Source of the DNA: Psococerastis gibbosa
Lineage: Eukaryota; Arthropoda; Insecta; Psocodea; Psocidae
NCBI GenBank assembly: GCA_963971405.1
Contig: OZ020487.1
Span: 46,039,039 to 46,103,038 of the forward strand
Length of the DNA: 64,000 nt
Reading direction: 5' to 3'
Shown: positions 49,101 to 58,100 of the stretch, piece after piece
Layout: every line of letters starts with the position of its first letter
Position numbering within the stretch: position 1 is the stretch's first letter
Notes under the pieces: model-generated
Databases searched by the model: none
The model's input: the letters and a program-made list of their open reading frames with translations, nothing else
Told to the model about the DNA's origin: nothing
Made by a program: the position numbers and the translations under genes

Positions 49101-52100
49101 TCCACTTGTAGATGTTACTGTATCGGATCCACGCCTTCCATAAATGTGGCCAGTTGGTGTCAGCATACTATGCAGAGGAGAATTTTTTCCATCTACTGAG
49201 TTCTCAATGATAGCTCTAGGATAAATATTTCCTGTGAAATTTTATTTTGTATATAAAACTGATAGTGGTGGGGGTTCTATATAAGAGATTATGGGACTTT
49301 ACCTTCCTCACAAAAAAATATATTTTTTAAATTTCAGGTGCCACCTGCCACGTCTCCTATGATTAGCCATTAAAAAGACGTGACAGGTAGCCCCAGGAAT
49401 GTTTCGCGTGAGCGAATTCCATTATAGAACTCCAGGTGGGGTGTTAAATGTTGTAAATATTTTCTTTTTATTCAGGCTAAAGGGATTGATGTGGCATGTG
49501 GTTGGTGTTAATTTCAGATTCTACTTTACTTTTAGTAAGCGGCGCGCCGCAGTGGCAACAGTACAAAAAGCCGTTCAACATGAACCAGGGTGCCATACGG
49601 AAGCTGCGCCAGGCGCCCAAACCACAGCAAATACACTACTGCGAGGTCTGCAAGATTAGCTGCGGTGGCATTATGGTGAGCGGTTGTTAAAATGTTGTGA
49701 ATCTAGTCAGCAGAATCCTGCTGAAAAACCCAGCGTTGGTTCTTGAATAGGGTTTGATTCAAAGGCTTCTCCACCTTATCAAGTACCGTATTTTGATAGT
49801 CTTCACACCTTCACCTTCACCTTCACCTTCACCTTCACCTTCACAAAAATGCACTTCAGTCACACCCCGGTATGATGCTCTCAACCAGACCATCACTGAG
49901 GAGGGATGAAGGCCTCGAATAATCCTAGGAGCATGGTCAGAGCTTCTGGCATACACCCTATCGTTTTGCCTGTTAAAAGTTTCTTCTATGGTAAAAATTT
50001 TTTCATCGGAAAACAGGATGTTTCTGTGCCCATTTTTAGCGTACCGCTTGAGTAGAACACGACTTCTTAGGCGCCTTAAATTTTTCAATTATTCCAAGCT
50101 TTTGAAGCTACTTGAAAATGGTACTCGGCGAGTGCCCACATTTGTGAAGGGCTATGACGGCAACACGATCTTCTCTTTGGCCCCATTCCATGGTCATCTA
50201 TTTCACAAAGTGCCACTTGTAATATATAAAATTGAAAGTAATTTCATGAGGAACAACAATATGGCATTTGTTTACAAACAAGTTTCAATTTAAATCCAGA
50301 AATTTTATGGAAAGTTGAGTGACAGTACTTAATGTCCAACTAGGTAGACTGTAGAGTAACTAGAGAATATGAAAATCCCGTTTCCATTTCTCCATATCTA
50401 CCATCCCCTGCCTGTAGTGACTTTATACGAAGTTAAAATATAGACTATACCGGTACCCCTAACTTGAACCTCTAATTGTTAAGTGATAATAATGACTTCG
50501 CTTTTGAAAACTTTAAGTAACTCTAAGAGTGACCCATTAACGAACAAATCAGACTATTACGTGGGTCGCTTGTAGGTGTAGGCCTTTAATATTAAAATGT
50601 TATACCGGATTCAGCCATTGGATACAGCTTAGTTCAAACGATATGTTGGTCAGTAATTTGAAGAATTTCCATAGTTTTGTATTTTGTTTTTAGACGTACC
50701 GGGAGCACCTGGAAGGACAGAAACACAAAAAAAAGGAAGCCGCCGCCAAGACGGGAACGCCAAGCGCGCCGGCACCCGGCCGCCATAGCAGCTCTCTGGT
50801 GTGCGAGCTCTGTGATGTTGTCTGTACCGGGCATGACGCTTACGCTGCCCATATCCGCGGATCCAAGCATCAAAAGGTAAGGAAAATGGTAGCTTTGTTA
50901 ACTTCAAGTACTATAGCTACCAACTATACTCGGTTAAAAGGTACTTTATGTAGTAAGGGTCGTCATGACGGTCTGTGGGTAACCCAGAGTGCTCCTGATA
51001 GCAGTCCGCTCCATGCTATATTAGATGTTACATTAGATTCTCTCAATATTTTTCAAATTAGCATTGTGGATCATGGTTAGCCCCATAACGGTACTTACTA
51101 CAATGATATCCTTTAACCGAGTGTAGGTAAATGCACGTTTCCTTAAGTCCGCTCTCTGGCCCTTCCCTTGGGCCGCCGACTTGTTGTTGGTGATAGGGAG
51201 TGAATGAGTCATAGGCGTGCAATAGTAAACTATCCTGGTATCGTCTGAGGCTGAGCAGTATCACCGTGGTTCAGCTTATGACTTGCTGGATGACACACAA
51301 CATATTCTTATATTGAGTTATCGGGGAATATAAAATTTATGGTTCATACTCACAAGGTACTTTTAGTGGATAGAGAAATAAACGTGGATAGGTTTTATGA
51401 ACCTTATATGCCAGGTCCGCCATTTTCTTGTTGACATGGTCTTCTTATAAGCCTGCCTTCGGTGTAAAATAAGATAGATATCGGAAAACTACGCTGAGTT
51501 GAGCCATACGTCAAAGCGGAAAAATCAGGTTCATCGAGGCATACTGTGCAGCTCTATGCAATAAGTCATCTTGCAAATGATGTATATGAAAGCTCGCTTC
51601 GCATATATCGTTTGCAAGATGGCTGTTTGGCTGGTGATTTTTCTGATGCGACGTATGGTTCAACTCAGCGTTGTTTACGTATAGCCGAATTGCCAACGGG
51701 AGCAACTGCTGAAAGGGCTGTAGTACAAGGCAAAATGCTTAGAAGTCAATCATTACATGTAGTTGTTGTTGAAACTTGAGTGTTCTAATAGCAGGGGCTA
51801 TATTAGTCTAGGAATAATGGTTAGCGAGTGGCTATAGATTTAATGTCGCAATTTTTTTTTATTTAGGTGGTCAAGTTGCACACTAAGCTTGGAAAGCCGA
51901 TTCCGACTTCGGACCCTGTTGTTGTGAAGAAAGAAACTAAAACGCAAGCAGATGCGTCCACATCAGGTAAATAAAGTGATTTTATTCCTGAAATGTATGC
52001 TTATCATATTGGTTATTTTTAATACCGAATAACCTGCGGAGAAGAAAGACAAATGATGACAAAGATGACGAGCCTGACTTTTGTTAGATGAATTTGGTTA

Positions 52101-55100: not shown

Positions 55101-58100
55101 GTTTCAAAGTACATTTCTCTACCAACTGAAGTATTCCGGACGAGATTTCTTCTTTAATGCACTTCCAAACAAATAGAAAATCCCGGCGTGGCTGCAATGC
55201 GTGCTCTATTTGATCGAAAGGAGCACCATCAATTCAAGAAAAGTCCCTGCTCTCCTCTATATATAATATATATATATGTCTATTCCGGACCTTAAAGATA
55301 CTAATTGCTAATGTGAAAGATGATGACAAAGATGACGAGCCTGACTTTTGTTAGATGAATTTGGTTACCCCTGACGTTTCGCCTGCCACTTGAAGGACAG
55401 TTCGTGACAATTCAATTTATAATGATAGATGTGGTATGTAATTGGTTGCAGGTTCTCATTCCAACAGGGCAAGGACGAAAGCTCTACGCTACGCGTTCTG
55501 AAGGCGGCCATGCGTGTCGGCACTCTGGCTAAGGGTCTTCTATTGAGCGGGGACACGGCTGTCGATCTAGTCGTGCTGTGTGCAGAGAAACCCACCAGGA
55601 CGCTGCTCCTCAAGGTGGCTGAGAACTTGCCCAAACAGCTGCAGGTCAGTTTTGATGTTTGAATAGAAGGTGGGTTTACGAACCCTTACTTGTGACTATC
55701 TAGGGTAGCGTATGGCCGAGGAGTTCTCAGCGGTTACACGGCCGTCGATCAAGTGCTTATGCTGGATTGAATGGAAAATTAAAAAACACTCTCACACGAG
55801 TATGCAGAGTTACTGTTTTTAAGATGTGATGTGAATATGCTACCAAATACCAATAGGTACAACTTAACTAGTACACGAAATATACGTCAAGTAGATTTAT
55901 GCGTGTATTCCAGGTTTGTCGGTATTATCAATGAACATGCCAGACATTAAAAGCTGGAGATTAAAGTAAGGTAGTCGGGGAGTTAAGCCTTTTCTAGCCC
56001 ACAAGGGAATGATCTCATGGGGCATGTGTCCCAAATGTGATTGTGTTGACTTTTTTCCGACAAAAGTGGCAAGTGTGGGCATTGGCTGAAGTGGCAGTAA
56101 AGCTATATTGCTAGTCTTGTTGCAGATCGTAGCACCCGATGAGAAGTACATGGTACAGAAGAAGCCAGAAGACGCAGTGATCACTGTGATGGATACCAAA
56201 GAGCCGCACAACACTGTCACCGTCACCCTGACGTCGCCACTGATGCGGGAGCAGACGGTGGTCGAGGCCACCCCCGCAGGTAAGCCGCCACTTTCCCTCA
56301 TAGCGCTCTTACACTGTTACATGGACTGGTATGGTGGCTATACTGATGTAAAATGCCAGCGGAAGGTTGAGGTTTGAGACTCAATGGAAATTTTGATTTG
56401 GGTGCCTTTAACCTTCACTGGCAGGGGAAAATCGCGGCTGCCAGGCACCTGTAGTTGATATCAACATCGAGAAATCTACCAGTTCTCAAGCCTAATTAAT
56501 TTTTTTTTTGGTTATTCTTGTATGTCCTAAAAACATATCATAGTGACGACTATTTGCAGTCACTATGTGCCAATTCTAGAATTGTGTTGCCATAGTGATT
56601 AAAAAGCAAGGCCATGGACGAAACTTGGTGAACAATGCTATCACAATTCAATTTGTTTTGGGGTAATTAGAGATGCCAGTTGTTCCATTAATTTGCATCA
56701 GCATAGTTTTATGCCAGTCTTTACAGACTTGGGGATGTAGTACAAATTCTGTAACCTCCCTTATATGAACAAGAACTCATATTAATGGTTACCCTGTTTG
56801 TATTAGGTTTGGGAGAACTTTTCGATCCCCTTGTCTTTTTTTTTATCTGAGATTGACTGTTTCAGGTCTTGATTTGTTCAGTAAGTAATATTTGTACAGT
56901 TTTATCAATAGCTGGCATTACACTATCAAGTTCGGAGCATTATGCAGTGTATATTATTTTACTCAAGGGCATAAAGTTATTCTCTTAATTGAGCAGTGAA
57001 TGATGAGAAATAGAGGAAAGCGTTAAGTAATAATTTATGACGGTGTAATGTGGGCTATTGCTACGGAACTAGCGCAAGTTAGGTAATATACCAACCGGTC
57101 GTTGCTTGGCAGATAGACGGCGGTGGTGTGCGGCAGTGTCACTCATCTGATACCGTTGTTATCAACAGTTCTCTATTGGAGAGATGGGACATTCGCTGCT
57201 CCCAAATTTGTTTTTGAATTTGAAATGCCATCTACCACATCATTTTCATTGACAGGCCATGGAAGACATGGCAGGTGGCAGCTGAAATTTTAAAAATAAA
57301 GGTGGGAAGCGAATATCCCATGTATGTATATTATATAGAAATCTAGATGTAAATATGGTGAAAATACTTTTCTGCCGTCTACATACCTGCCAAGTAAGCT
57401 TGAGGTTCGAAGGTTTATTTCTAAGCACTATCCGTTCATACACTGCCACTTAGGGTATTTCAGCATTATGAATTAGCAGCAATTTTTATGATTTTTTGCG
57501 CTAGTTTACGTTAAAAAAGTTAGGTATGTTTGCAAATACTTGGTCCCTAGCACACACGGCTACCAATATAAAAATAGCTAAGCGACGTGGATTGTGAAGT
57601 GGAAAGGTTGAAGTTGGATGCCTGATGCAGCAGCCTTGGCTCCCTTCAATCCAAATAGAATCCACCTGCCTTTGAAAGGCCCCTCATGGGCTCTGGTTAT
57701 TTCAATCCAGCGAGACAAATTTAAAGAGAGGCTGTAGAACGCTAGTCAGTGGGTTATTAGCTTTTTTCTCGGTGGATTGCAATACCCTTAGATGGTGGTG
57801 GTCTTCGTGGCATGGTGTTCTATTGTTTGATAGGTCTGGCCGTTTTTCCATTGGTATCGAAGGTATTGTGTGCTGGGTGCAAGCTGTTTCTAGGTGGCGA
57901 TGCCGACTGCTGCCATGTAATATTGACGTATCTACTTTTATTAATGTGAGCCTTTTAGGGAGGACGTGGAAAACTGCAAGGATATTCCATCATGTGTTTG
58001 GTATGGGATTCTGAGGTCTCACGTCCCGTATAACCTTGCAGATTATATAAATTAGTTGTAGAAGTGGCAGTCAGTCTGGGGATATTTATTTAGCCCTGTT

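Follow-up and report, generated by a model that had tools for sequence, protein, structure and literature searches.

Introns of ZFR as the probable home of a box C/D snoRNA family in Psococerastis gibbosa

Does the gene ZFR act as a host of small nucleolar RNAs (snoRNAs) in the insect Psococerastis gibbosa, and which ribosomal positions would such RNAs guide? The question is raised by four short related units that a first-pass annotation, made from the letters alone, had placed in ZFR introns 7, 10, 11 and 12 within a 64,000-nucleotide stretch of contig OZ020487.1 (the window; positions 46039039-46103038, assembly GCA_963971405.1). Judging from their boxes, their placement and their complementarity to the animal's own ribosomal RNA (rRNA), we conclude it to be very probable that the four units encode box C/D snoRNAs and that ZFR hosts several snoRNAs in this animal.

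Four related units in ZFR introns

Splicing the 11 mapped exons of ZFR (Table 1) gives one open frame of 598 amino acids, which contains zf-met zinc fingers in three stretches and a DZF domain (DZF_N, 64.6 bits), the best match in PDB for the DZF part being ILF3. The gene continues to about position 63100, with its last exons recognized by eye and not joined to the mapped ones. The intron numbers given in the first-pass annotation agree with our exon list in their relative spacing, the mapping starting without the 5' exons.

Table 1. Positions of ZFR and of the candidate snoRNA genes in it, numbered from the first letter of the window
Feature	Positions	Strand	Parts	Guides
ZFR	47072..56279	+	11 mapped exons, single open frame through 10 introns	
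C/D unit 1	52053..52107	+	C 52053-52059, D' 52074-52077, C' 52085-52091, D 52104-52107	D' guide AGATGACGAG; D guide ATTTGGTTACC
C/D unit 2	53841..53895	+	C 53841-53847, D' 53862-53865, C' 53873-53879, D 53892-53895	
C/D unit 3	54409..54460	+	C 54409-54415, D' 54429-54432, C' 54437-54443, D 54457-54460	
C/D unit 4	55320..55374	+	C 55320-55326, D' 55341-55344, C' 55352-55358, D 55371-55374	
H/ACA SNORA53 (RF00563)	51132..51300	+	Rfam match 51132-51297, H box ATAGTA, ACA tail	
snR71/U29-like C/D RNA	46915..46988	+	C ATGATGA 46915-46921, D' TTGA 46943-46946, D CTGA 46985-46988	

When both strands of the 64-kb window were scanned for the grammar RTGATGA, CTGA, C' (two mismatches at most) and CTGA, four matches were found, which are the four ZFR units and nothing else; the order of ATGATGA, CTGA, C'-like motif and CTGA reported in the first pass is present in all of them. 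In 4/4 units, box C towards the 5' end matches RUGAUGA exactly, box D towards the 3' end matches CUGA exactly, and D' is an exact CTGA, and C' carries one or two mismatches. The end of box D is separated from the acceptor by 71, 79, 79 and 77 nt in units 1 to 4, all within 60-90 nt; the earlier values of 71, 79 and 77 hold, and the third unit's 69 is corrected to 79. Over the whole stretch bounded by boxes C and D, units 1 and 4 have the same sequence and are therefore not independent; unit 2 departs from unit 1 at 3 of the 55 bases, and unit 3 is a diverged sister of the other three.

With unit 1 as query, the 409-Mb genome returned three places, all in ZFR, and unit 3 returned one place, itself. 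A guide pattern (TGATGA, up to 30 bases, GATGACGAG, any base, CTGA) gave three genome matches, the same ZFR places found with unit 1, where about 0.09 would be expected by chance with equal bases. The genome search skips very common words, so that these counts are strong but not absolute proof of absence. Dispersal of the unit outside introns, which had been named in advance as evidence against the snoRNA claim, was not seen in these searches. An origin of the units from some ordinary transposon or dispersed repeat, copies of which happened to land in ZFR introns, would fit the near identity of three of them and the further repeats in the same introns, but the genome matches are confined to ZFR and the distance from box to acceptor is similar in 4/4 units; we consider such an origin very improbable and reject it, as the ZFR-only matches largely refute it. 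Still less credible, and likewise rejected, is the idea that short motifs came together by chance in AT-rich introns. The boxes are short, and relaxed C/D matches with guides of 9-10 bp occur on both strands, but the strict grammar had no match in 60 Markov-1 simulated strands, and the 55 bases are common or nearly common to three introns.

The D' guide and the case for a snoRNA family

Compared with the animal's own 18S-5.8S-28S unit, taken from contig C19, the D' guide pairs with 28S CTCGTCATCT over 10 bp for units 1 and 4 and over 9 bp for unit 2. In units 1 and 4 the guide reaches a score of 10 both here and at the duplicate of this site in the spacer, and no more than 7 elsewhere in the same rRNA unit. 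Yeast numbering here and below follows a 28S stretch that we take to be correct, anchored at A2256. With the target set opposite D+5, the D' guide of three of the four units (1, 2 and 4) points to the 28S G that corresponds to yeast Gm2288, a known methylation site. According to the portions of the published site tables consulted, Gm2288 of yeast (snR75) is Gm2278 in Arabidopsis (AtU15) (PMC8817022), and the human equivalent is given as Gm3792 (PMC11542601).

Several results weigh against a C/D snoRNA identity or against this target. The human entry at Gm2288 is a dash in the portion of PMC8817022 consulted, versus Gm3792 in that of PMC11542601, and the D' guide of unit 3 has no convincing target in the scan of the animal's own rRNA. 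The C' box has two mismatches in three units, and a reversed-pattern control for the guide pattern gave one genome match. When the units were checked against Rfam covariance models, 0/4 reached the gathering threshold, the best scores being 24.2 bits for unit 1 (snoZ5, gathering 60), 20.1 bits for unit 2 (SNORD15, gathering 75) and 20.5 bits for unit 3 (snoPyro_CD, gathering 45). Sub-threshold matches in the SNORD15 genome search also occur in 12 of 14 control genomes (all names shown are prokaryotes), and because the controls score likewise, the SNORD15 likeness does not rise above noise. Scoring 48 of 20,296 candidates, a weak test, revealed no canonical SNORD15 at another place in the genome.

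The terminal stems also vary. Compared with 20,000 random places within the gene region, the stem is best in unit 2 (8 bp, P=0.0055), followed by unit 4 (6 bp, P=0.036) and a borderline unit 3 (4 bp, P=0.096), and that of unit 1 (P=0.27), another point on the negative side, is not above chance. Because of this spread, with unit 1 at chance, the argument from covarying closing stems made in the first-pass annotation is only partly right: it is good for unit 2, fair for unit 4 and borderline for unit 3. Unequal stems are also what would be expected of a real snoRNA family in which some copies have decayed, units 1 (poor stem) and 3 (orphan D' guide) being perhaps silent and units 2 and 4 working. 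Silent members are common in multi-copy snoRNA families, and the unmatched D' guide of unit 3 would fit as well; on the other side, units 1 and 4 do not differ anywhere between C and D, and unit 3 retains its boxes and a 10-bp D guide, which drift should have broken. We regard such partial decay as possible, if on the doubtful side.

Taken together, we favour with high confidence the reading of the units as intron-encoded box C/D snoRNA genes, probably of a lineage-specific C/D family. The proposal that ZFR hosts C/D snoRNAs draws its support from the fit of the D' guide to the animal's own 28S in three of four units, from genome searches that place the unit in ZFR alone, and from two more snoRNA-like genes there (SNORA53 and a snR71/U29-like RNA, described below). 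Splicing of ZFR would yield debranched introns, which exonucleases would trim down to the assembling small nucleolar ribonucleoprotein (snoRNP), composed of 15.5K, NOP56, NOP58 and fibrillarin. The D' guide of units 1, 2 and 4, pairing over 9-10 bp, would then direct 2'-O-methylation of the 28S G2288 equivalent, and their D guide, for which 9 bp are seen and 11 would form if the usual GG precedes, would pair just upstream, pointing to A2275; in unit 3, the D guide, shifted by one nucleotide (10 bp), would point to A2276, and the D' guide would be a diverged orphan. Expression, snoRNP assembly and methylation are in each case what we infer from the sequence.

In the part of their study consulted, Hoeppner and Poole (2012, PMC3511168) place snoRNAs in introns of broadly expressed genes, at locations that are unstable across evolution. 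Going by literature titles and abstract beginnings, we found no report of ZFR or Zn72D as a snoRNA host, and to that extent ZFR as host gene is new here. The list of snoRNA hosts would be extended by the gene for a double-stranded-RNA-binding zinc-finger protein, and the locus would offer a compact case, with three copies and one diverged sister in one gene, of C/D guides spreading between introns and of a target shifting by one nucleotide.

The D guide and the 28S around the R2 site

The D guide pairs with 28S in 4/4 units, at sites absent from the consulted portions of the published tables. For units 1, 2 and 4 the pairing is 9 bp (D+4 to D+12) with TAACCAAAT(G), directly upstream of the D' target; for unit 3 it is 10 bp (D+3 to D+12) with the same stretch, D+5 being shifted by one nucleotide. 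The predicted D+5 sites are A2275 (units 1, 2 and 4) and A2276 (unit 3), and the tables list nothing between Am2256 and Am2281 in the portions covered (PMC11542601, PMC8817022). For unit 3, the 28S site is the best-ranked match of the D guide. All four D guides carry a T matching TAACC in the animal's own 28S, and so pair in Watson-Crick fashion where this 28S departs from the canonical sequence, which we take to be TAGCC.

Of 17 matches to 28S, 15 (all but C19:1089166 and C19:5232) were read at this position: seven distinct places read TAACCAAAT (a count for which the script searched AACCAAATGCCT), six read GCTCAAAT, one reads GCCCAAAT and one, a diverged copy at C19:1150965 (84%), reads CAGCCAAAT. 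TAACC is thereby found at seven distinct places, and the other, diverged or spacer copies have GCTC (6), GCCC (1) or CAGCC (1). A search of both strands for GCCTCGTCATCTA showed no TAGCC. At the R2 site, each of the seven TAACC places (C19 rDNA; L009-L014, L024) comes directly after sequence foreign to 28S, the contexts being of three different kinds. Diverged duplicates of the 28S stretch surrounding the R2 site also lie in the spacer that comes after 28S (L017 8897 and 9150-9260; L019 287 and 530-650).

Two results count against the 28S pairing of the D guide. Pattern searches of the genome found no uninterrupted 28S copy, and for units 1, 2 and 4 the D guide also matches 18S GGGTAACC over 8 bp (D+1 to D+8), a match that the scans ranked first because the 28S site requires bases before TAACC that were not seen adjoining it in the assembled copies read. 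The D guide might then serve this 18S site (units 1, 2 and 4), or might provide accessory pairing beside the G2288 site, instead of directing methylation at A2275/A2276. Both guides of one RNA pair with adjacent 28S stretches, as an accessory role would have it, and the predicted sites are missing from the tables consulted; against these alternatives, the D guides directly precede CTGA, their 28S pairing from D+3 or D+4 to D+12 has normal methylation geometry, and unit 3, diverged elsewhere, retains a 10-bp 28S pairing as its best match. We judge an accessory or 18S role to be nearly as probable as its opposite. The predicted 28S D target is less sure for units 1, 2 and 4, where the 18S match competes.

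A further reading is that a lineage-specific G to A change occurred in 28S at the yeast-2276 equivalent and that the ZFR snoRNAs, by base-pairing with the altered sequence, guide methylation to A2275/A2276 as new sites next to the point where R2 inserts. We offer this tentatively and think it rather unlikely, its probability being lowered because the 18S match competes. The ancestral A2281 guide may be gone: an exact pattern of box C plus A2281 guide is absent genome-wide in both D and D' spacing (a search by exact pattern may overlook a true guide), and the reversed-pattern controls gave 4 and 6 matches. If the predicted 28S sites are methylated, guide and rRNA would be changing together beside the target of the R2 retrotransposon.

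Neighbouring features and comparison with known snoRNAs

Another ZFR intron contains an H/ACA RNA, SNORA53, which scores 44 bits against a gathering cutoff of 38 and folds as two hairpins, ending 566 nt upstream of the next exon. In an H/ACA scan it reached -62.3; further candidates in the gene were rejected, the best of them (-47.8) being near the minus-strand noise (-46.3). A genome search with RF00563 missed the window's own SNORA53 and is therefore uninformative on copies elsewhere.

The snR71/U29-like C/D RNA lies 83 nt upstream of an internal coding exon. It was chosen, among relaxed C/D matches with 9-10 bp guides on both strands, for its known target and a weak Rfam match to the same family. 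Its D' box has one mismatch, and no terminal stem was found at the locus. Eleven contiguous base pairs with 28S (one G-U) place D+5 opposite the A that corresponds to yeast A2946, and Am2946 of yeast is Am4493 of human (snR71/U29) in the portion of PMC8817022 consulted. A second copy on contig C2 (L032 1507-1580) has 98% identity over 80 bases, the likeness stopping at box D, and sits in an intron-like setting with box D 73 nt before an acceptor-like AG. The pair perhaps represents a recent copying of the snoRNA between genes.

Several repeats were also noted. The intron of SNORA53 holds a large imperfect, MITE-like foldback with a 22-bp inner hairpin (51490-51680), and that of unit 4 two head-to-tail copies, 85-88% alike, of a unit of about 108 nt (54853-55073). 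A partial duplicate of a ZFR exon (52945-53076) lies in the following intron (53262-53368; 78-87% alike), and directly after ZFR there is an inverted repeat (63520-63740) with a sub-threshold mir-2363 match, probably a MITE. Of five contig ends, one is a long TTAGG telomere array (298 counts of CCTAACCTAA, L008), a repeat typical of arthropods, and one is all N.

Among known systems, the U29/snR71 RNAs share the target A of the 46915-46988 unit, and the Rfam snR71 model covers the place, but at 25.7 bits (E 3.5) against a cutoff of 60. Intron-hosted mobile snoRNAs, as described in the consulted part of PMC3511168, resemble the ZFR units in their intronic placement, whereas here the host is ZFR, one gene holding four related units and two others. 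In snoZ5 (RF01226), box C and AUGAUGA..GAUGACGAG.CUGA align with unit 1, but the alignment is limited to the 5' half of unit 1 and stays at its 24.2 bits against 60. SNORD15/U15 (RF00067; AtU15 in plants) has in common with the ZFR units the D' guide GATGACGAG before CTGA; yeast snR75 and Arabidopsis AtU15 have, in the table portions consulted, the same G2288-equivalent target as the ZFR D' guide. In contrast to the SNORD15 family, with its 146 positions, the C-to-D length of the ZFR units is about 55 nt, and the register of their D guide points to A2275/A2276, not to A2281.

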